Below are positions 16,214 through 26,448 of a DNA stretch of 32,896 nucleotides, one piece after another. How positions within the stretch are numbered: position 1 is the first letter of the stretch; every line of letters begins with the position of its first letter. The DNA is from Desulfovibrio sp. (GTDB taxonomy: Bacteria > Desulfobacterota > Desulfovibrionia > Desulfovibrionales > Desulfovibrionaceae), in the NCBI GenBank assembly GCA_031288535.1, contig JAITRF010000134.1, positions 1 to 32,896 of the forward strand, given 5' to 3'. The notes beneath the pieces are model-generated. The model had not been told where the DNA came from. It made no database searches and was given only the letters and a program-made list of their open reading frames with translations. The translations under genes and the position numbers were made by a program.

Positions 16214-17347
16214 CTATTCTCCGCCGCGAATGGCCGCGTACGGTTCCAGAGAACGCGCCCGCAAGGCCGGGTACAGGGCCGCCAGCACGCCTACGGCCAC
16301 CGTCAGGAGCAGGATCAGGACCATCCTGGCCAGGGCGAAGCCCATGGATGACAAAGCGGAACCTTCGCTAGGGACGGCGCCGGCCGCCGCCAGCCATGCC
16401 GCCGAGCACACGATGCCGAGAAGGCTCCCCGCCCCCGCGAGCAGAGCGGCTTCGCCCACAATCAGCCTGAAAACGAAGGCGTTTTCGGCGCCCATGGCTT
16501 TCAGCAGGCCGAATTCCCGCCTGCGCTCATGGACCGTCAGGGCAAACATGGCGCCTGTAACCAGAAAGACCGCAAAAGCCACAAAGACCGTGGCGATACG
16601 GAAACCGCCGCCTTGCAGCAGGCCGTGCAGCTGATCGTTGATGGTTTTGAGCATTTCCGGGCGGGCGATGACCTCGACCCGGGCGATGTTCGTTTCCAGC
16701 ATGTTGACCGTAAAATCCGGAAAGGCGTCTTTCCGCAGACGGACCAGAAGCCAGGAAGGGTCCGGGATTGTTTCGCCCGGCACAGGAAAAAAGATCGCCG
16801 TATCCAGAAATGTGCCTGTTTCCCGCAGACGGCCCGCAATCGAAAACTTCCCGCCGTCCACCTCCAGGACGTCGCCGGGAACCTTTCCCGCCCCGACCCG
16901 CGCCCCCAGCACGATTTCTCCGGAATCTCCGCGCCATTCTCCGGGCGCCTTCCCTTCCAGCCAGGGCAGGACGACAAAGTCGGTTGCCGGAGCGAAACTG
17001 ACGAGGGTCGCCAAAACGTCCCCCACGCGCGCTTCGCCCCTGTATTTCTGAGGAGTCACGACGTCAACGTCGGAAAACGTCTTCAACTGCTCCGCCGCCT
17101 CCCCCGGCACCACGCCCCGGACCGGAGGTCCCTTGGCCAGATCGACTTGTCCGGTCTCTTTTGTTCCCGTCGGAACAAGGGCCAGATCCGCTCCCGTCAG
17201 CAGGCGGTTGCGCTCAAGTTCTCCCTGGATGCCGCCGGACGTGAAAACGGCCGTCAGGGCCATGGTGACCGCCAGGGCGACGGCAAGAACGATAAAGACG
17301 TTGTACGCCTTGTGTCCTTTCAGGTTTTTCAGTGCCAAGTTCCACAT
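16214..17347 (-). CDS. FtsX/MacB-type ABC transporter permease (last gene of operon)
   Basis: This 377-residue inner-membrane subunit has one N-terminal membrane segment (~17-37), a large periplasmic MacB-type domain (~40-255), and three C-terminal segments. The conserved cytoplasmic loop reads HERRREFGLLKAMGAENAFV, and the protein ends with ALYPALRARSLEPYAAIRGG. It is similar in design to the permease at 19678-20886, and both probably share the single ATPase at 18976-19671. Such complexes usually do mechanotransmission or extract lipoproteins and periplasmic substrates rather than classic import. Within this operon a role in assembling or maintaining the copper or heme protein is possible, but that is inference. 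It is 41 bases after the BNR-propeller gene. Confidence 0.9.
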   Translation of the reverse strand: MWNLALKNLKGHKAYNVFIVLAVALAVTMALTAVFTSGGIQGELERNRLLTGADLALVPTGTKETGQVDLAKGPPVRGVVPGEAAEQLKTFSDVDVVTPQKYRGEARVGDVLATLVSFAPATDFVVLPWLEGKAPGEWRGDSGEIVLGARVGAGKVPGDVLEVDGGKFSIAGRLRETGTFLDTAIFFPVPGETIPDPSWLLVRLRKDAFPDFTVNMLETNIARVEVIARPEMLKTINDQLHGLLQGGGFRIATVFVAFAVFLVTGAMFALTVHERRREFGLLKAMGAENAFVFRLIVGEAALLAGAGSLLGIVCSAAWLAAAGAVPSEGSALSSMGFALARMVLILLLTVAVGVLAALYPALRARSLEPYAAIRGGE

Positions 17348-17388
17348 GGCGTCGTTTTTCCGATCAAGGTGTTCGTTCGCATTCGGGA

Positions 17389-18555
17389 TTACCAGACGGG
17401 CTTCCGGGAATCAGGCGAAGCCCGCCTTCTGCTCCGCCGGACCAGCAAAAATACCGCGACCGCCAGGACCGCGACCGCCGCAAGGCCGTACCGGACAAGA
17501 GGAGGGACATCGTCTCCCGCGCCGGGCAAGGTTGCGATGTTCGCATCCGTGTAGGATAACAGGCCGTATGTCGTGCCGGCAAGAATGACCGGAGGTTTTC
17601 CCGGCAGGACGTAAACCTTGTGCAGGAAGGGGTTGTCCAGGCCGGTGTTGATATCCGTCCAGGTCGCGCCCCTGTCCGTGCTCCGGTACGCCCCGCCCCA
17701 GGCCCCGGCGTAGACCACGCCCGGATACTGCGCATGCGCGGCGAAGGAAAAAATGGTGATCGTCAGCAGGCCGGTTTCTTTCCAGGTTCTTCCCCCGTCC
17801 ACCGTCCGGAAGGCGCCTCCGTTGGACTGGCCGACGTAAAAATCCGTCGGGGTGGCCGGATGGTACGCCCCCGCCAGCACGACGTCCGGGTCTTCCGGGT
17901 CAATGTACAGGGAGAGAACGCTCAGACTGCTCAACCCCTCGTTGACGTCGATCCAGGAGACCCCGCCGTTGCCGCTCTTGAAAACGCCGGCGCCGCCCGT
18001 GCCGGCGAACAGGTACTGGGGATTCCTGGGATCAATGGCGATGCAGTTGACATTGACCGCGCGCCTGAACCCGGAGGACATGTGCCACTGTTTCCCCCCG
18101 TTGGTGCTGATGGCTACTCCGTCCTGTATGCCCACATAGAGGAGATTGGGGTCCTTCGGGCTTATGACGATGCAGCGGACGTACAGGTTGGGAAGCCCTT
18201 CATTGAGAGACCGCCAGGTGCTTCCGCCGTCAAGGGTTTTGAAAATCCCCAGGCCCTCATAGCCGACGTATATTTCCTTGCTGTTGAGATAATTGACCGC
18301 CACGGAATTGGGCGGGATATCCCCCGGCAAATCCGCGCCGATGCCCGTCCAGGTATTCCCGCTGTCAAGGCTCTTCTTCAGACCCTGGGACGTGACCGCG
18401 TAGAGCGTGGAAGGCCGCGCGGGGTCGCCGGTCAGAGAAAGGATATGCACCGCGTCCAGGGCGATTTTGTTCCAGGCGTTATCCCCGGCCGAAGCCGGAG
18501 CAGGAGCGGCGCACAGAAAAACGCAAAACGGAAGGATGGTGAATATTCTGGTCAT
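17389..18555 (-). CDS. Membrane-anchored BNR/Asp-box beta-propeller protein
   Basis: The 388-residue protein has a Sec signal peptide (residues 1-23), a beta-propeller with at least six Asp-box repeats (SLDSGNTW, TLDGGSTW, STNGGKQW, SGNGGVSW, TVDGGRTW, STDRGATW), and a C-terminal membrane helix (~350-368) followed by a basic tail. It is related in fold to sialidase/YCF48/sortilin-type propellers, but sialidase catalytic residues are not evident. YCF48-type propellers act in cofactor-protein assembly, which fits this cluster. ATG 18555 has AAAGGA seven bases upstream; the frame extends further, but without a signal peptide at the N-terminus. It lies 10 bases after the NTF2-like gene. It could take the place of NosD as periplasmic scaffold; that is a hypothesis. 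Confidence 0.85.
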   Translation of the reverse strand: MTRIFTILPFCVFLCAAPAPASAGDNAWNKIALDAVHILSLTGDPARPSTLYAVTSQGLKKSLDSGNTWTGIGADLPGDIPPNSVAVNYLNSKEIYVGYEGLGIFKTLDGGSTWRSLNEGLPNLYVRCIVISPKDPNLLYVGIQDGVAISTNGGKQWHMSSGFRRAVNVNCIAIDPRNPQYLFAGTGGAGVFKSGNGGVSWIDVNEGLSSLSVLSLYIDPEDPDVVLAGAYHPATPTDFYVGQSNGGAFRTVDGGRTWKETGLLTITIFSFAAHAQYPGVVYAGAWGGAYRSTDRGATWTDINTGLDNPFLHKVYVLPGKPPVILAGTTYGLLSYTDANIATLPGAGDDVPPLVRYGLAAVAVLAVAVFLLVRRSRRRASPDSRKPVW

Positions 18556-18565
18556 CCCGTTTCCT

Positions 18566-18979
18566 TTATGGATGGATAATCTTCCATTCCCGTTTGACGC
18601 GGACCAAATCCATATTGGAATTGGAACTGTACGGGCCAAACCACAGGGGGACGACAACCTTGGTCTCCACAACGGCGGTGTCGTCCTTGATGGTTTCTCC
18701 CGTTACTTCCAGTTGCATGTCCGGGGAGTACATGGAGACCCTGTCGATAAACTGGTTGTAAGAATTGTTGTAATGCCGGATGCTGACAAAGCCGTAGGCT
18801 TTTTTGTAGTCCCTGCTTTTCAGGGCCGCAAAATATTCAGCGATCACCTGCCGGGGAGAAACGTCGGGAAGTTTGACGTGATCGAGATAATACCGCATCC
18901 CGAAAATTCCGGCGAGGACGACATGAAAGGCGCAAACGGCCATCAGAACTGTTTTTCTGGTTTTCTTCATCATGCTCAT
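18566..18979 (-). CDS. Small membrane-anchored NTF2/DUF4878-like protein
   Basis: This 137-residue protein has one N-terminal membrane helix or uncleaved signal (~10-30) and a soluble domain. The domain begins SPRQVIAEYFAALKSRDYKK AYGFV, an arrangement typical of NTF2-like folds, where a helix-rich start is followed by beta strands (TVVETKVVVPLWF-like). It would face the periplasm. No catalytic motif is seen. Its start overlaps the ATPase stop by four bases (ATGA), which implies translational coupling to the transporter. A role as a small accessory or substrate-recruiting subunit is likely but unproven. Confidence 0.7.
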   Translation of the reverse strand: MSMMKKTRKTVLMAVCAFHVVLAGIFGMRYYLDHVKLPDVSPRQVIAEYFAALKSRDYKKAYGFVSIRHYNNSYNQFIDRVSMYSPDMQLEVTGETIKDDTAVVETKVVVPLWFGPYSSNSNMDLVRVKREWKIIHP

Positions 18980-19671
18980 GATGCCCCGCTCTTTGCGCCT
19001 TTTGGAGAAGATTCCCCCTCATAGGGGAGCACCTGCTGATTTTTCAGGAGGTAGGGCGTCCCGAAGGAGGAATAGTCCAGAGCGTGGGTCACCATCACGA
19101 CGAGGACCCCCTGCCTGTTGATGCGCTGGAAAAGGCCCATGATCTCCGCTTCGGTCGTCTCGTCCAGGTCGCCGGTGGGTTCGTCGGCCAAAATGACGGA
19201 GGGGCGGTTGATCATCGCCCTGGCGATGGCCACACGGCGTTGCTGTCCCCCGGAAAGCTGGGAGGGGTAGGCGTCCTCCTTGCCGGTTATCCCGACCATC
19301 CCCAGAAGCGACAGGGCGGATTCCCTGTCTTCGCGGTCAGGGGTCCTGCCGCTGAAGGCGATGGGCAAAAGGACGTTGTCCAGCACGCGCAGGGTCGGAA
19401 TCAGACTGGGGAACTGAAAGACAAAGCCGAGCTTCCGGTTTCTCAGGGCCGCCAGATCAGGCTCGGACAAGCGCCAGATGTCCACGTCGTCAATGAACAC
19501 CTTTCCTTCATCCGGTCTGGTCAAACCGCCCATGATGCTGAGCAGCGTCGTTTTTCCCCCTCCGGAACGCCCGGTGACAAGGACAAAGGCGGCGTCCTCA
19601 ATCCGCCAGTCTATCCGGTCCAGCACAGTAAGGTCCTTATATCGCTTGCCGATATTTTCCAACCGGATCAT
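18976..19671 (-). CDS. ABC transporter ATP-binding protein (LolD/MacB type)
   Basis: This 231-residue cytoplasmic ATPase has Walker A GRSGGGKT (34-41), a Q-loop at about Gln86, signature LSGGQQRR (139-146), Walker B VILADEPTGDLD (from 159) and the switch His near 196. The PTGDLD form and overall similarity place it with the LolD/MacB/FtsE group, which pairs with FtsX-type permeases. Two such permeases lie in the operon, one six bases upstream and one three genes downstream, so the complex could be a heterodimer. It occupies the position NosF would hold in a classical nos cluster, but it is not the NosF family by its motifs. Confidence 0.93.
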   Translation of the reverse strand: MIRLENIGKRYKDLTVLDRIDWRIEDAAFVLVTGRSGGGKTTLLSIMGGLTRPDEGKVFIDDVDIWRLSEPDLAALRNRKLGFVFQFPSLIPTLRVLDNVLLPIAFSGRTPDREDRESALSLLGMVGITGKEDAYPSQLSGGQQRRVAIARAMINRPSVILADEPTGDLDETTEAEIMGLFQRINRQGVLVVMVTHALDYSSFGTPYLLKNQQVLPYEGESSPKGAKSGAS

Positions 19672-19677
19672 CGCTGC

Positions 19678-20886
19678 TCATTCTCCTCTTCTGATGGCTT
19701 CATAGGGCTCAAGACGGCTTATGCGCAGGGCCGGGTACAGTCCGCCCAAGATTCCGGTGATCAGCGAGGCGGCCATGATCAGCAGGACGATGGCGAGAAA
19801 ATCCCGGTTGCCCGGCCAAACGTATACGTTGCCGATCATCCCGGTGATCAGGTCCTTGCTGAAATAGGTCGCGCAGGCTCCGATCAGCACGCCGATCGCG
19901 CCGCCAATCCCGGCGATGCACGCCGCTTCCAGGATAATGAGCCGAAAAACGACGCCGCGCCCGGCGCCCATGGCCCTGAACAGGCCCAGTTCCCGCATCC
20001 GCTGCCGGACGGACAGGGCGAACAGGCTGCCCACCAGACCGGCGGCCAGAAAACCGAAAATGCCGCCGGCCAGAAGGAGGGCGTCCGCCAGACCTTGCAG
20101 CCGCAGGCTGAAAAAACGGGTCAGACGGCCGGAGGTCAGGGCCTTCACCTCCGGAACGTTCCGCTCGATGTCTTCCGCCACAGCCGCGGGGTCCGTCCCC
20201 TCCTCCACCTGGACCAGAATGGTGGAAACCTGGTCCTGGCGGATGGGGACAGGGTAGAGCGGCGATTCCCGGACCAGCCGATAGGCGGTCTCCATGGTAA
20301 GAAAGACCGTATAATCGGCGCCGAGTCCCGTCGGCTCCAGAATACTGGCCACGGTAAAAGGCTTGCCCATGAAGATCAGCCTCTGCCCGATGGCTTTCGC
20401 CGGAGTGCCGACCACGGCGGAAATGACCTTGGCCCCCACGATGATCTGGTTGTTTCGCTGCCTCTCTCCGGTTTTTTGCAGAACCCAGGGGGCGATGGTG
20501 AAATCCCGCTCCGGGTCGTAGCCGATCAGGGTCACCTGCACCACGCAGCAGGCCGCGTCCAGGCTGCGCAGGTAAACCTGCGCGCAGGTCCGCTTCACCC
20601 CCGGGATCTGCCGCACCTGCGCTTCCAGAGAAGAAGGCATGTAAAAAGTGGTGGGTTCGCCGGAAATCAGGGCCGCCAGCGCCTCTTCCCGGGACTGTGC
20701 CGGTACCGCCACGATATCGGCCCCCATGCGTTCCCTGGAGGTTTGCAGGGTGTCCTGAATGCCTTTGGAGAGGATGGCGGCCGGAAACAGGGTCGCGCAG
20801 GCCAGGACGATGCCGCCGATCATCAGCCAGGCGCGAAACGGCCTGCGCCGGAGATTCTGCCGGACCAGATACAAAAGCTGTCGCAT
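19678..20886 (-). CDS. FtsX/MacB-type ABC transporter permease
   Basis: The 402-residue inner-membrane protein has an N-terminal membrane segment (~20-40), a large periplasmic domain (~45-270), and three C-terminal segments. It has the RQRMRELGLFRAMGAGRGVV loop and a GGLYPALRISRLEPYEAIRR end, both diagnostic of the family. The periplasmic domain contains two adjacent cysteines in a CCVV context and a further Cys ~15 residues before, unusual for this family and possibly metal-binding or disulfide-forming. It lies 68 bases after the YtkA-like gene and six before the ATPase gene, so it is the natural partner of that ATPase. Confidence 0.92.
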   Translation of the reverse strand: MRQLLYLVRQNLRRRPFRAWLMIGGIVLACATLFPAAILSKGIQDTLQTSRERMGADIVAVPAQSREEALAALISGEPTTFYMPSSLEAQVRQIPGVKRTCAQVYLRSLDAACCVVQVTLIGYDPERDFTIAPWVLQKTGERQRNNQIIVGAKVISAVVGTPAKAIGQRLIFMGKPFTVASILEPTGLGADYTVFLTMETAYRLVRESPLYPVPIRQDQVSTILVQVEEGTDPAAVAEDIERNVPEVKALTSGRLTRFFSLRLQGLADALLLAGGIFGFLAAGLVGSLFALSVRQRMRELGLFRAMGAGRGVVFRLIILEAACIAGIGGAIGVLIGACATYFSKDLITGMIGNVYVWPGNRDFLAIVLLIMAASLITGILGGLYPALRISRLEPYEAIRRGE

Positions 20887-21437: not shown

Positions 21438-22658
21438 TCACCAACTCGGCGCATCGGCGTCCATCATCCAGAAATACTGCGGAAACCGGTAATGCAGGGC
21501 CAGCCACTTGTTGTCATGCCGGGTGGAAAAGGCGTCAATCGTTCTCGGGGCGGCGGCGAAGGACTGGCCGAAGTCCTTTTTGTGGCAGCTCGCGCAACTC
21601 CAGATGGGGGTGGTGCTGCAGGTGTGATAGGTGACGACCGTAAAGGCGAGGAATACAGTTAGACTGACGGGGAAAACCAGCCATCTGATCCGCTTTTTCC
21701 GGGCGTTTCCCCGATCCGCCAGAGGCAGCAGGCACAGCCCCAGAAGCAGGAGCGCGGGAATCCAGAAGACACCGAGCATTTCCATGTCTTCCTGGAAATA
21801 GCGGGTCACCTGAAAAAACATCATGTACAGCCAGTCGGGCTGAGGCACGGAGGAGGTGGTGACGGGGTCGGCGAAGTCCTGCTTCTGGATCCCGAAAGCC
21901 GCCAGGGCAAGGAGCAGCAGGGTCGTCCCCGCCACCGCGGCCGCGGCGCGCGGGAACCGCCCGGAAAAGAACCGCCCGGGGCGCGCCGGTCCGGTTCTTT
22001 TGTCGCCATGTGCGGGCCCGTTCGCATCGGGCGGCGCATCTTTTTCACGGAACCCCGGCCTGCCGCGAAGCGCGGGGAAATGGCCGCCAAGGCAGACCCC
22101 GGCCAGCAGGGGGAGCACAAGGGTATGCAGGGCGAACCACCTGCCGACCGGCACAACGCCGTTCACAGTATCCGAAAACAACAGCCACTGCAGCGCGCCC
22201 GCGAACAGGGGCAGGCCGTCAATCCAGTGCCCGATGGTCTTCACCGTCCAATAGGCCCTGAAATCCCAGGGCAGCAGATAGCCGGTCACGGTAAAAGCCG
22301 CGGCCAGCGCCAGCAGGAGGATGCCGGTACACCACTTCCGTCCTCCGCGGCGCCATGCCCCGCGGAAGATCACGATCAGAAGATGCAGCGTCAGGAAGGA
22401 CATCAGGACAAAGGCGCCCCAGCGGTGGAGGGATCGGAAAAATCCGCCCGCCCGGACCTGCGTTTCGATAAATTCGACGCTCGTCCAAGCGTCCGCCGGG
22501 GTCGGCTGAAAAAACATCGCCATATAGATCCCGGACGCGGCCTGAAACAGGAACACAAGAACGACAAGGCCGCCGGAACGGCCCAGGAAACAGACCAGAT
22601 CGTGCCCCGCCCCGCCGGTCTTTCCGCCGGCGGGGCGGGGAGCGCATTCTCTGTCCAT
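21438..22658 (-). CDS. Full-length cytochrome b with C-terminal c-type heme motif
   Basis: This 406-residue integral membrane protein contains both the b6-like and subunit IV-like parts of cytochrome b. Heme ligands are His78/His92 and His178/His193, on two helices with the usual 13 and 14 intervening residues. GYLLPWD is present at about 126-132. The quinol-site PEWY motif is altered to PDWL near 274-277. Uniquely, the last ~60 residues are periplasmic and carry CASCH (355-359), a c-type heme site, so electrons could leave directly to a partner such as the NosZ-like protein encoded just upstream. ATG 22658 is chosen because residues before it are a shadow of the nosZ end. The two genes are 19 bases apart. 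Confidence 0.88.
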   Translation of the reverse strand: MDRECAPRPAGGKTGGAGHDLVCFLGRSGGLVVLVFLFQAASGIYMAMFFQPTPADAWTSVEFIETQVRAGGFFRSLHRWGAFVLMSFLTLHLLIVIFRGAWRRGGRKWCTGILLLALAAAFTVTGYLLPWDFRAYWTVKTIGHWIDGLPLFAGALQWLLFSDTVNGVVPVGRWFALHTLVLPLLAGVCLGGHFPALRGRPGFREKDAPPDANGPAHGDKRTGPARPGRFFSGRFPRAAAAVAGTTLLLLALAAFGIQKQDFADPVTTSSVPQPDWLYMMFFQVTRYFQEDMEMLGVFWIPALLLLGLCLLPLADRGNARKKRIRWLVFPVSLTVFLAFTVVTYHTCSTTPIWSCASCHKKDFGQSFAAAPRTIDAFSTRHDNKWLALHYRFPQYFWMMDADAPSW

Positions 22659-22677: not shown

Positions 22678-24249
22678 TTACGCCTCGACGATAAACCAGC
22701 CGCGCATCTCCAGATGGAGCGGTCCGCAGAAATAGGAGCAGAACATGGCGAATTTGCCGGGCCTGTCGGCGACGAACTCGAAGATGATCGACTTGCCCTG
22801 CGGGACGCCCCAGTTGGTCTGCAGACCGTATTCGTTGATGATGAAGCCGTGAACAGGGGCGGGGTCATTGGTCAGCCCGGTGGCCTTGTCGATATTCGTC
22901 AGGATGACGCGTACCTTGTCGCCCTTTTTCACAGTCACGTTATCCGGCTTGAAGCCGTAACTGAACTCCTGCAGACGGACTTCCACCACCCCGCCGTCGA
23001 TCCTGGTCACCCCCGGGGCGCCTTTGTCCTCGGGCACCAGCTTGGCGTTCACGTTGGGGTCTTTATGCGGAGCCCAGATGGAGGCGTGGCCTTCCGGAGG
23101 CAGATCGGCGTTGAGGTATCCCCGCACGACGTCCGCCTTGATGATTTTGGCGTTATGCGGTTCGGGCACTGTGGGCGCCCTGGCGATGACCTCTTCCGTG
23201 GCCAGATCGATCAGCTCCACGTTGGTCGGGTCCTGGTTGGAAATGGAACCGGCGAAAAGGCCCGTGGAGTATTTGTTCCAGATGGTGAGGTACTTGCTGT
23301 CCGGCGTGATCTGCAGGTGGCCCGGCCGGTAATGGACGGGGATCTTTTTCACCATTTCCATCTTTTCCAGGTCAATCTTGGCCACGGCGTTGTCCACGAA
23401 CAGGGTCGTATAGGCCCATTTCCCGTCGTTGGTGAAGACGGTGTGCAGAGGACCGGGGGCCGGGCTCTTGTTGAAGCCGGGGACGGCGGGGGTCATGTCG
23501 ATCTCTTTGATCACCTCCATCTTGGCGATGTCGATGACCGGGACGTTTCCGGAAAGCTTGCCGGCGACAAAGGCCAGTTTGCCGTCAATGGTCAGGTCTA
23601 TGCCGTGGGGATTTCTGCCCGCCGGGATGAACTTGGTCCGTTTGAAGCCGTCCACCTCGATCACATGCACGCCGGAACGGTAATAGTCCGTGGCCAGACA
23701 ATATTTTCCGTCATGGGTGACCACAAGATAGTCCGGGGCTGATTCCTGCCCGTCGGAGACGTCGATTACCTCGACCTTGCCGCTGGCGATGTCGATTTTG
23801 GCCATTTTCCCGGACAATTCGCCTGTGGCGAAAAGGGTTTTCCCATCGGGGGTGATGGCGATGTGGTGCGGCCCGAAGGGCGCGGGGATGTTGATCTTGC
23901 GGATCAGCTCCTGGGTGGAGATATCCACGACCCCGACGGAGGAATCCCCCTTGTCGTTGATAAAGACGTACTTGCCGTCCGGGGTCCCGTTGGTGCCGGG
24001 CTTGTTGGAGCCGGAAAAGACCGGCTCGTGGGTGTCCACGCCCACCGGGATCAACTTGATGGTCCGCAGGCTGGGCAGGCCGATGACCTGCAGGGTTCCG
24101 GAAATTCCGCCGGAAGCGAAAATGATGTATTCGTCCTTGTCCTGGGCAAGTCCGCCCGGCTGGGCGGCGCCGGCCTCCAGGCAGGCTGCCGTGAGAAAAA
24201 GCGCGACCAGCAACGCGACGGCCGGATGCAGATTTTTTTTGTTTTTCAT
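22678..24249 (-). CDS. nosZ: Divergent NosZ-like (nitrous oxide reductase) multicopper protein
   Basis: NosZ reduces N2O to N2 in the periplasm using a catalytic CuZ cluster in a seven-bladed propeller and an electron-entry CuA site. This 523-residue protein has a Sec-type signal peptide (as in clade II), YVTN-like blades (HHIAITPDGKTLFATGELSG) and a cupredoxin tail. CuA ligands are complete: His467, Cys504, Cys508, His512, Met515. CuZ-type histidines are seen at 74, 128/129, 215 (NPHG), 269 (GPLHT), 311 (PGHL) and 365 (EPHN). The usual DxHH is DTHE (72-75), so one ligand is Glu, while an extra His appears at 128/129. It is about 110 residues shorter than ordinary NosZ. GAGGGAG precedes ATG 24249. 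Membership of the family is strong; N2O as substrate is likely but untested. Confidence 0.88.
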   Translation of the reverse strand: MKNKKNLHPAVALLVALFLTAACLEAGAAQPGGLAQDKDEYIIFASGGISGTLQVIGLPSLRTIKLIPVGVDTHEPVFSGSNKPGTNGTPDGKYVFINDKGDSSVGVVDISTQELIRKINIPAPFGPHHIAITPDGKTLFATGELSGKMAKIDIASGKVEVIDVSDGQESAPDYLVVTHDGKYCLATDYYRSGVHVIEVDGFKRTKFIPAGRNPHGIDLTIDGKLAFVAGKLSGNVPVIDIAKMEVIKEIDMTPAVPGFNKSPAPGPLHTVFTNDGKWAYTTLFVDNAVAKIDLEKMEMVKKIPVHYRPGHLQITPDSKYLTIWNKYSTGLFAGSISNQDPTNVELIDLATEEVIARAPTVPEPHNAKIIKADVVRGYLNADLPPEGHASIWAPHKDPNVNAKLVPEDKGAPGVTRIDGGVVEVRLQEFSYGFKPDNVTVKKGDKVRVILTNIDKATGLTNDPAPVHGFIINEYGLQTNWGVPQGKSIIFEFVADRPGKFAMFCSYFCGPLHLEMRGWFIVEA

Positions 24250-24410: not shown

Positions 24411-25103
24411 TCATTTTTTTCGGGAAAGATAGGCGGAGACCGCATGCCTTTCCGTATCGCTCAGGGGGACGAGCGACATGATGGTCGTCTGGCTGACGAT
24501 TTGCGGTTGAAGAATAACCCGCTCGATATAGGCCCGGTTCGTCCTTGAGCCGATTTGGGTCAAATCGGGGGCGAAAAAGCCTCCTTTCCCGTCCATGCCA
24601 TGGCAGGACTGGCAGAACCGTCTGAACAGATCCTGCCCCTCGGCGATCTGCTCCCCGGTTATCGGCGGCAAAACCATCCTGTAGCCGTGCCGTTCGTCCT
24701 CCAGGATGGAGACCGCGGTCAGGCCGGCGACGGAAAACGCCACGGCCAGACATACGGCGGCGGCGACAGGCCGCTTTCTTACGTCGACGGTCTCGCCCTT
24801 GTCCAGAAAGGGCAGAAGAAGCAGCAGGACAAAAACCAGGGCGGGCAGAACGCATGTGCCGACGACGGTCAGAGGGCCTTCAAAATATTTCAGCAACTGA
24901 AAATAAAATAAAAAGTACCATTCGGGCCGGGGGACGTAGGTGACGTCGCCGGGGTCGGCCATTTCTTCCAGAGGCGCCTGCCAGACGAAGGAAAGGGCGA
25001 CCAGAACCGCCAGGACCGCCAAGGCGGTCATGCATTCAAAAAACATCTGGTGCGGATAAAAAAAGGACCGGTCTCTTCCTCCGGAGGGGGAATCCGTCTC
25101 CAT
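24411..25103 (-). CDS. qcrC: Cytochrome b subunit IV fused to cytochrome c (QcrC-like)
   Basis: This 230-residue membrane protein joins a PetD-like subunit IV (three membrane helices at ~24-42, 80-100, 112-132, with the quinol-site PEWY at 60-63) to a periplasmic cytochrome c domain. CQSCHG is at 164-169 and a probable Met ligand at 209 (TIMSL). This architecture is that of menaquinol:cytochrome c reductase QcrC of Bacillus and similar anaerobe complexes. It pairs with the b6-type gene immediately upstream. The METDS start at 25103 is supported by AAAGGA six to seven bases upstream; an earlier ATG at 25142 has no good site. Confidence 0.92.
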   Translation of the reverse strand: METDSPSGGRDRSFFYPHQMFFECMTALAVLAVLVALSFVWQAPLEEMADPGDVTYVPRPEWYFLFYFQLLKYFEGPLTVVGTCVLPALVFVLLLLLPFLDKGETVDVRKRPVAAAVCLAVAFSVAGLTAVSILEDERHGYRMVLPPITGEQIAEGQDLFRRFCQSCHGMDGKGGFFAPDLTQIGSRTNRAYIERVILQPQIVSQTTIMSLVPLSDTERHAVSAYLSRKK

Positions 25104-25167: not shown

Positions 25168-25836
25168 CTACAGGGGACGGGAAATGCCCTGCCGCCGCAC
25201 CATAAAGAAATGGGCCGCCAGGAATATGACCAGAAACGCCGGCAAAAACATGACGTGAATGACGAAAAAGCGGACCAGGGTGAGGGCGCCCACCTCGCTG
25301 CCGCCCCGGAGGGCGTCGGCCAAAAAACCGCCGGCAAGAGGAATGCTCGCGACCATGTTCACGCCTACCGTCGTCGCCCAATAGGCTTTCTGATCCCAGG
25401 GGAGCAGGTATCCGGTAAAGCAGGACCCCGCCACCAGCAGCAAAAGGAATATGCCCGCGATCCAGTTCAGTTCGCGCGGTTTCCTGTACGACCCGGTCAG
25501 AACGACGCGCAGCATGTGCAGGGAAACCATGACCACGGCCGCCGTCGTGCCCACCCGGTGAATCCCCCGGATGAAGCCGCCGAAGGCGGTTTCGTTCTCG
25601 ATGTAGTTGACGCTGGCGTAGGCGTCCTCGGGCGAAGGCACATAATAGAGCATAAGAAAAACTCCGGTCAGCGCCTGAAGCAGAAGAATGAAAAAGGCGA
25701 TGCCGCCGAAGCAGTACATGAACGCGGAAACGTGCTTCGAGGGATCGGCGTGTTCGGGAACCTCATGGTCCGCGATGCTTCTGATCAGCGGAGTGAGGTT
25801 CAAGCGTTCGTCGAGGAACTTGTAAACCCTGCTCAC
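25168..25836 (-). CDS. qcrB: b6-type cytochrome b (QcrB/PetB-like)
   Basis: This 222-residue, four-helix membrane subunit binds two b hemes via His93/His107 and His194/His209 and forms the quinol-oxidising core with the subunit IV fusion. The motif FMYCFGGI with Cys42 matches the cysteine that anchors the extra heme c(n) in b6-type proteins. GYLLPWDQKAYWA is conserved at about 142-154. I chose GTG 25836 because homology (SRVYKFLDERLNLTPLIR) begins there and the codon follows the Rieske stop with a one-base gap. A TTG at 25872 would overlap the Rieske gene by 35 bases. Confidence 0.93.
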   Translation of the reverse strand: MSRVYKFLDERLNLTPLIRSIADHEVPEHADPSKHVSAFMYCFGGIAFFILLLQALTGVFLMLYYVPSPEDAYASVNYIENETAFGGFIRGIHRVGTTAAVVMVSLHMLRVVLTGSYRKPRELNWIAGIFLLLLVAGSCFTGYLLPWDQKAYWATTVGVNMVASIPLAGGFLADALRGGSEVGALTLVRFFVIHVMFLPAFLVIFLAAHFFMVRRQGISRPL

Positions 25837-25837
25837 A

Positions 25838-26329
25838 TTACGCGTCCCGGATGAAGATTTTATCGGCTTCAACCTTTACCGCCAACTGCGCCAGCGGTTC
25901 TGGAGGGGGGCCTTCCAGCACCCTGCCCTGCGCGTCAAAGGCGCCCCCATGACAGGGGCAGGTGAAGCGCTGCGTGGCGGAATTCCAGTCCACACCGCAA
26001 CCCAGATGGGTGCATCTGTTGGTCAGGGCCACGAGTTTGCCGTCGTCCTGCCTCACCACAAAGGCCATCCGGCGCGCTTCCGACATCCGCCAGCCGTCTT
26101 TGCGCACGTAGCGGTAGGTGATCTTCGAGGGTTCACCCTGCCGCAACTGCCCCAGATCCGCGATTTCAATCCAATCCGCCCGGCTCTTCTTCAAGGCCGG
26201 AGAAAGAAAAAAACCGGCCAGGGGGATACCTAAACCCAACCCGAAAAGACCGGCCAGCGCTTTGATGCCGTTGGCGAGGAACCTGCGTCTGGGCGACGGA
26301 TGCTTTTCTTCGGAACAAACCACGCGCAT
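25838..26329 (-). CDS. qcrA: Rieske iron-sulfur protein (QcrA-like)
   Basis: The product carries the [2Fe-2S] cluster of the quinol oxidase complex and passes electrons from menaquinol to cytochrome c. Cluster motifs are CTHLGC (106-111) and CPCHGG (124-129). The N-terminus has a Tat-type signal/anchor (PRRRFL followed by a hydrophobic helix, ~12-44), as expected for a Rieske protein exported folded. ATG 26329 is one base after GGAGG, too close for use. GTG 26323 is spaced seven bases from it and may be the true start; a TTG at 26371 extends the frame further. It is the first gene of the operon. Confidence 0.93.
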   Translation of the reverse strand: MRVVCSEEKHPSPRRRFLANGIKALAGLFGLGLGIPLAGFFLSPALKKSRADWIEIADLGQLRQGEPSKITYRYVRKDGWRMSEARRMAFVVRQDDGKLVALTNRCTHLGCGVDWNSATQRFTCPCHGGAFDAQGRVLEGPPPEPLAQLAVKVEADKIFIRDA

Positions 26330-26369
26330 GCCTCCGTGTCGTCGTTCTTGCGCCAGCCTGCGATTTTTC

Positions 26370-26448
26370 AAATAATACGGACGTGTTATTTGGAATCCGA
26401 CTTATGCGGATTCTATATTTACTAATAACAGGAGGGAGGAATAGTCAA
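26370..26448 (-). promoter_or_regulatory. Candidate promoter and operators of the respiratory operon
   Basis: On the minus strand TTGACT (26448-26443) is followed after about 18 bases by TAGTAA as a possible -10. Immediately downstream lie two palindromes: GAATCCG/CGGATTC (26393-26399 and 26407-26413, perfect 7-bp arms) and AAATAATAC/GTGTTATTT (26370-26378 and 26383-26391, 8 of 9 bases matching). Their position just downstream of the likely start of transcription suits a repressor or redox/NO/copper sensor. Neither matches the FNR (TTGAT-N4-ATCAA) or CRP consensus. Confidence 0.45.

Follow-up and report, generated by a model that had tools for sequence, protein, structure and literature searches.

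A short-tailed monoheme cytochrome b in the L-NosZ operon of a Desulfovibrio, a candidate membrane electron entry for clade III nitrous-oxide reductase

How do electrons reach L-NosZ, which removes the greenhouse gas N2O, and what is the role of a second cytochrome b encoded directly beside it? L-NosZ joined the known N2O reductases only recently, as their third clade (He et al. 2025, as cited in PMC12569097). The locus considered here lies in a 32,896-nucleotide stretch of DNA from Desulfovibrio sp. (contig JAITRF010000134.1), the whole of which we call the window. All relevant operon genes are carried by the minus strand, as is the focal gene, and follow each other in this order:

25838..26371, minus strand: Rieske iron-sulfur protein (QcrA); no other Rieske domain was found genome-wide
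25168..25836, minus strand: cytochrome b_N (QcrB, b6-like), with YCFGG and its c_i cysteine
24411..25103, minus strand: cytochrome b_C with a full cytochrome c domain (QcrC-like) and PEWY
22678..24249, minus strand: L-NosZ, a lactonase-type nitrous-oxide reductase of clade III, counting 523 aa from its likely start
21438..22658, minus strand: focal gene, cytochrome b_N and b_C fused, with a C-terminal monoheme tail, 406 aa and seven predicted transmembrane helices
20955..21404, minus strand: FixH/YtkA-like protein, downstream of the focal gene
19678..20886, minus strand: MacB/FtsX-type ABC permease
18976..19671, minus strand: LolD-like ABC ATPase
18566..18979, minus strand: NTF2-like small protein, whose relatives adjoin L-NosZ in distant operons too
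17389..18555, minus strand: BNR/sortilin-type propeller protein
16214..17347, minus strand: second MacB/FtsX-type ABC permease

The first-pass annotation, made from the sequence alone, had described a complete QcrB/QcrC pair, a further cytochrome b and a NosZ-like protein. Indeed, Rieske, cytochrome b_N and cytochrome b_C plus cytochrome c genes are all found upstream, and the NosZ-like neighbour is an L-NosZ according to NCBIfam NF052460 (874.5 bits for a cut-off of 700). Its CuA motif, C504-x3-C508-x3-H512-x2-M515, and eight histidines are invariant in 12 L-NosZ proteins from the focal and distant genomes. The focal gene is separated from L-NosZ by 19 bp and from the FixH/YtkA-like gene by 33 bp. 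Further downstream, MacB/FtsX-type permeases and a LolD-like ATPase (16214-20886) form part of the L-NosZ operon; at distant L-NosZ loci (e.g. L041:15602-17328), the ABC ATPase is a different one and comes with a 259-aa permease. An NTF2-like small protein is encoded beside L-NosZ in most of the operons that we saw (e.g. L046:8061-8516).

The focal frame (22658-21438, minus strand) contains no internal stop, and its product is built as follows:

22065..22658, minus strand: b_N half, about residues 1-198, with heme-b ligands H78, H92, H178 and H193
21945..22064, minus strand: K/R-rich linker of about 40 aa, predicted cytoplasmic, containing the out-of-frame ATGGCGACAAAA
21828..21839, minus strand: Qo-site motif PDWL replacing PEWY, residues 274-277
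21441..21632, minus strand: periplasmic tail, residues 343-406, with CASCH at 355-359 and W385-x3-H389-x3-P393

Matches to Pfam Cytochrome_B (residues 29-198, 5e-29, 101.8 bits for a curated cut-off of 27.2) and Cytochrom_B_C (residues 263-345, 9e-6, 26.3 bits for a curated cut-off of 20.7) assign the predicted protein to the cytochrome b superfamily, with both its b_N and b_C parts. All 43 aligned cytochromes b share the two heme-b histidine pairs, H78/H92 and H178/H193. The c_i cysteine of YCFGG has been replaced in the b_N half, which reads GRSGG, so the protein does not carry the residue of a b6-type heme c_i (c_n); this cysteine is mostly lost in the focal genus group, and is retained in G001 and G013 and in distant pairs linked to L-NosZ. 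Nor is the Qo site of the PEWY type: PDWL is found in all seven genus members, while relatives have PEW[Y/T/F/W/I]. Hydropathy, together with the positive-inside rule (charged loops 99-110, 193-238 and 314-323), agrees with a cytoplasmic N-terminus followed by seven transmembrane helices, and the tail beyond residue 343 is therefore predicted to be periplasmic. An alignment-based AlphaFold model of the protein had a pLDDT of 51.7, too low for a reliable structure.

CASCH starts 13 residues past the last predicted transmembrane helix, and only 52 residues extend from CXXCH to the C-terminus, in which no Pfam cytochrome c domain was detected; the protein does not resemble a subunit bearing cytochrome c1, cytochrome f or a full cytochrome c domain. 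No solved homologue of the tail was found either, as profile matches in the PDB stop before it. CXXCH is accompanied by W-x3-H-x3-P in the seven genus members, and likewise in each complete tail recovered from related families; CASCH is therefore not a chance occurrence. Cytochrome c assembly genes are present in the focal genome, so that the CXXCH can be loaded with heme. On the basis of this motif, of the invariant H389 and of the assembly genes, we infer that the tail carries a covalent heme, which is probably bis-His with H389 as sixth ligand. The features first read from the window alone were thus recovered: four heme-b histidines in the second cytochrome b, PDWL instead of PEWY, a CASCH tail that the positive-inside rule places in the periplasm (residues 355-359), and a short monoheme tail rather than a full cytochrome c domain.

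In the genus, the focal orthologue directly follows L-NosZ and has the same neighbours wherever the contig allows (seven genomes including the window). PDWL, CASCH and the tail WLALHYR[FY]PQYFW are kept by all seven members. The two cytochrome b halves are fused in the window, G004 and G005, where a single gene is found, but the fusion varies across the genus: four of the seven genomes (G001, G013, G008 and G007) have two genes, b_N and then b_C with the CXXCH tail. The fusion is therefore recent, and the tail is the conserved part. Comparison of DNA and its three frames across the seven relatives revealed that the linker ATGGCGACAAAA corresponds to the beginning of b_C in G008, where b_C is a gene of its own; in the window it is now out of frame with b_C, so that the fused frame keeps b_C translated. 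We rejected the fusion as an essential state, given the split in four of seven, and we likewise discarded a restriction of the short tail to the focal organism, since tails were found in genus relatives and in distant genomes.

Using a profile of the b_C-tail half (A1) to search genomes of the phylum, we found the same b_N/b_C-tail pair in distant L-NosZ genomes. In these, b_N and b_C-tail are separate proteins with PEWY, rarely PEWT or PEWF, and the tail ends in W-x3-H-x3-P-x3-W. A further group, which we call family B, consists of fused cytochromes b of about 390 aa with the tail CNSCH...W-M-x2-H-W-x2-P (loci L077-L084, L137:726-1880, L138:1698-2870, L139:1677-2840 and L142:12402-13568). Its genes are flanked by those of a TPR protein and an NTF2-like protein, the latter being another one that comes after family B, and are sometimes found on the L-NosZ contig. 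In a tree of b_N and b_C from which the tail columns had been removed, 19 short-tail proteins are set apart with a support of 98/95 from 24 other cytochromes b, which comprise the Rieske-linked ones and the QcrB/QcrC of the window. A tree of b_N only recovers the same split (96/91). At the level of sequence, these trees show a separate ancestry for short-tail and Rieske-linked cytochromes b. The focal branch is long (1.1) and, for the b_N half, an AU test does not reject a sister position of the focal group to the operon's own QcrB (p 0.14), so the deep position of the focal group is good but not final. A recent duplication of the operon's QcrB as the origin of the focal gene is disfavoured by the trees, with the same reserve for the b_N half. 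We propose a short-tail (CXXCH...W-x3-H-x3-P) cytochrome b family, in which the focal protein would be included by both motif and clade.

The presence of this cytochrome b follows that of L-NosZ closely. Of 15 genomes of the genus, seven encode L-NosZ, and the focal orthologue occurs in precisely these seven. Among 395 genomes sampled from the phylum, L-NosZ was detected in seven, and strong A1 matches (E at most 5e-55) in six of these seven and in none of the 388 others. In the class of G289 (63 genomes), 14 genomes have L-NosZ, 14 have the pair and 12 have both (Fisher p 3e-9, uncorrected for kinship). The two genomes scored as having the pair only are a genome with a C-terminal fragment of L-NosZ at a contig edge (G552) and one that is 62% complete (G553). 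The real exceptions are G525 and G526, from one genus, which have L-NosZ without the b_N/b_C-tail pair; the operon of G525 is syntenic yet lacks both cytochrome b genes, and the cytochrome b module is therefore not indispensable. Where L-NosZ and the pair co-occur, they lie on one contig within about 5 kb in nine of 12 genomes, and on different contigs in G134, G549 and G550, which belong to one family. This sampling was drawn from one phylum.

Distant operons typically run L-NosZ, NTF2-like protein, b_N and b_C-tail, often with a cytochrome c or a NosD-cytochrome c fusion inserted between the last two. The fusions combine a NosD-like beta-helix with a C-terminal cytochrome c (Pfam NosD and Cytochrome_CBB3) and were seen at four loci of distant L-NosZ operons; three of the four lie between the two cytochrome b genes:

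L137:10521-11951: NosD-cytochrome c fusion
L139:12582-14051: NosD-cytochrome c fusion
L140:2319-3653: NosD-cytochrome c fusion
L135:4601-5944: NosD-cytochrome c fusion

Another gene set adjoins L-NosZ or family B at L041:1766-6755, L079:1037-6192 and L080:637-6008. Its products are a membrane protein resembling cytochrome bd, cytochromes c with one and with two hemes, and one fusion of a cytochrome c with an ethylbenzene-dehydrogenase-type heme b domain.

Altogether, the first-pass annotation had regarded the architecture as unusual and tied to a NosZ-type enzyme, a view that homologues lacking the CXXCH or a NosZ-like partner would have refuted. No complete orthologue lacks the CXXCH. The second cytochrome b is distinct and has a short monoheme tail, but it represents a conserved family rather than a curiosity. 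The tie to L-NosZ is supported by the counts above (7/15, 6/7 and 12 of 14) and loosened by the two genomes of one genus without the pair. Likewise, the orthologues track L-NosZ, but family B, a fused paralogue family with the same tail, is present in two genomes without detected L-NosZ (85% and 94% complete).

Is a Rieske protein needed alongside? The single Rieske protein of the focal genome adjoins the other cytochrome b, and the focal protein has none of its own. We searched for Rieske domains in L-NosZ genomes. None was found in the draft genomes G178 and G212, and G171 (100% complete, 40 contigs) has a lone 110-aa Rieske protein of the ferredoxin type, encoded far away from every cytochrome b gene. 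Short-tail cytochromes b are encoded in all three, the pair in G171 and G212 and family B in each of them. Some carriers would thus be devoid of a Rieske/cytochrome b complex, as far as absences from draft genomes can tell, and they offer a test of whether a cytochrome b of the bc family works without a Rieske protein. In the comparison set, a Rieske motif adjoins 11 of the 19 other cytochromes b, and by similarity those of L096, L097 and L099 as well. In these last three, which belong to distant L-NosZ genomes, the Rieske/cytochrome b locus is separate, has PPWY and is followed by a multiheme cytochrome with eight CXXCH.

That a conserved cytochrome b travels with L-NosZ suggests that it probably passes electrons from the quinone pool towards N2O reduction without a Rieske protein. 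We thus favour, with a probability of roughly 55%, the focal protein as a Rieske-independent, menaquinol-oxidising b/c module that provides the membrane electron entry of an L-NosZ respiratory operon. Menaquinol would be oxidised in the membrane, and the two b hemes would relay the electrons to the single covalent heme of the periplasmic tail, which would hand them on to L-NosZ either itself or by way of a small periplasmic carrier; both the acceptor and the direction of flow are presumed. Putative direct transfer from the tail heme to CuA, as first proposed, is plausible; the separate cytochrome c or the NosD-cytochrome c fusion of distant operons could also be the real carrier. PDWL and the loss of the c_i cysteine suggest that the focal protein is a simple quinol dehydrogenase more than a Q-cycle enzyme. 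In distant pairs, PEWY and the c_i cysteine are both present, so that the two quinone sites may be preserved there. In the focal genus, the module would stand beside the canonical Rieske/cytochrome b/c complex of the same operon, making two routes to L-NosZ.

Three observations speak against this b/c module: L-NosZ exists without such a cytochrome b in G525 and G526, family B has the same tail in genomes without detected L-NosZ, and the complete Rieske/cytochrome b/c complex of the window operon could alone feed L-NosZ. In Campylobacter, a Rieske-type Qcr complex is established as feeding periplasmic nitrate and TMAO reductases (PMC6195509). By this precedent, the canonical complex may be the main route in the focal operon.

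With the respiratory flow carried by that complex, the module could instead be a NosR-like reductase supplying electrons for the maturation or reactivation of the L-NosZ copper sites. The canonical complex encoded in the window is in line with such a role, as are the downstream FixH/YtkA-like and ABC transporter genes, which resemble copper or assembly functions, and the NosD-cytochrome c fusion lying between the two cytochrome b genes of distant operons. We nonetheless consider it unlikely, because the module would have to carry the main flow too in L-NosZ carriers without a Rieske/cytochrome b complex, and the PEWY and c_i cysteine retained in distant pairs point to quinone turnover.

The same retained features might indicate a Q-cycle without Rieske protein, in which the tail heme would replace the Rieske cluster and cytochrome c1: the first quinol electron would go to the tail heme at Qo and the second through the b hemes to Qi, menaquinol electrons thus being bifurcated to feed N2O reduction. 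If true, this would be a bc-type enzyme without an iron-sulfur subunit, and N2O respiration would conserve energy without Rieske. PEW(Y), both b hemes and the YCFGG cysteine, hence both quinone sites, are kept by distant pairs that occur in genomes without a Rieske/cytochrome b complex, and the tail heme site is predicted directly after helix G on the p-side. This mechanism appears quite unlikely to us, as a bis-His heme is expected to have a low potential and to be a poor substitute for Rieske, and, in the window protein, PDWL stands at the Qo site and the c_i cysteine is gone.

Alternatively, the focal protein might share the operon's Rieske protein and serve the same bc complex as a second kind of cytochrome b, either as isoform or as heterodimer partner. 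The only Rieske gene found in the genome does sit in this operon, and the AU test on the b_N half leaves room for a sister relationship with QcrB. We hold this to be very improbable, for the homologous module is found in genomes without a Rieske/cytochrome b complex and the combined tree splits the focal protein from Rieske-linked cytochromes b. Most improbable of all is a redundant duplicate decaying after the canonical complex took over: the long branch, the lost c_i cysteine, the change from PEWY to PDWL and the linker frame change that made the fusion would agree with drift, but none of the seven genomes has lost the reading frame of either half, and each retains PDWL, CASCH and the tail motif; the b-heme ligands are intact and the operon position is preserved.

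Our literature search yielded nothing specific on cytochrome bc complexes that lack a Rieske protein, nor on this component of the operon, which the original L-NosZ description may already note; nor did it yield a paper on the electron route to L-NosZ, that description being outside the search. The focal type is a conserved, little-described kind of membrane cytochrome b. Being co-inherited and having its own heme tail, it is a concrete candidate for the electron route to L-NosZ.

Among known systems, Bacillus-type QcrABC, the kind encoded upstream in the window, also combines b_N (four transmembrane helices) and b_C (three) with four heme-b histidines and with a C-terminal extension on the p-side that has a covalent heme c site. 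The focal protein differs by its separate clade, PDWL, the lack of a Rieske partner of its own, and an extension of about 50 residues with a His-based motif instead of a cytochrome c domain of 80-90 residues. Cytochrome b6f (b6 and subunit IV; PDB 2e74) is among the closest solved relatives by sequence, and the H178/H193 spacing of 15 residues is b6-like; unlike b6f, the focal protein has no cytochrome f, Rieske protein or c_i cysteine, and has an extra tail heme site. Split b cytochromes of the ExtP/ExtQ type (NCBIfam NF040969 and NF040970) likewise place a b_N-type cytochrome in a respiratory operon, but the match is far below the cut-off (129.5 for 290 bits) and leaves the tail unmatched. 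Family B shares the architecture, the tail motif and the side of the tree, and differs by forming its own clade, usually at another locus, and by its presence in the two genomes without detected L-NosZ. Finally, the clade II nos modules of Wolinella, described as comprising NosG, C1, C2 and H with a Rieske/cytochrome bc complex (Hein et al. 2017, as cited in PMC13274427), also provide nos-associated electron input from the quinone pool. Those modules rely on NosGH-type proteins and a Rieske complex, whereas the L-NosZ operon itself encodes a tail-heme cytochrome b.
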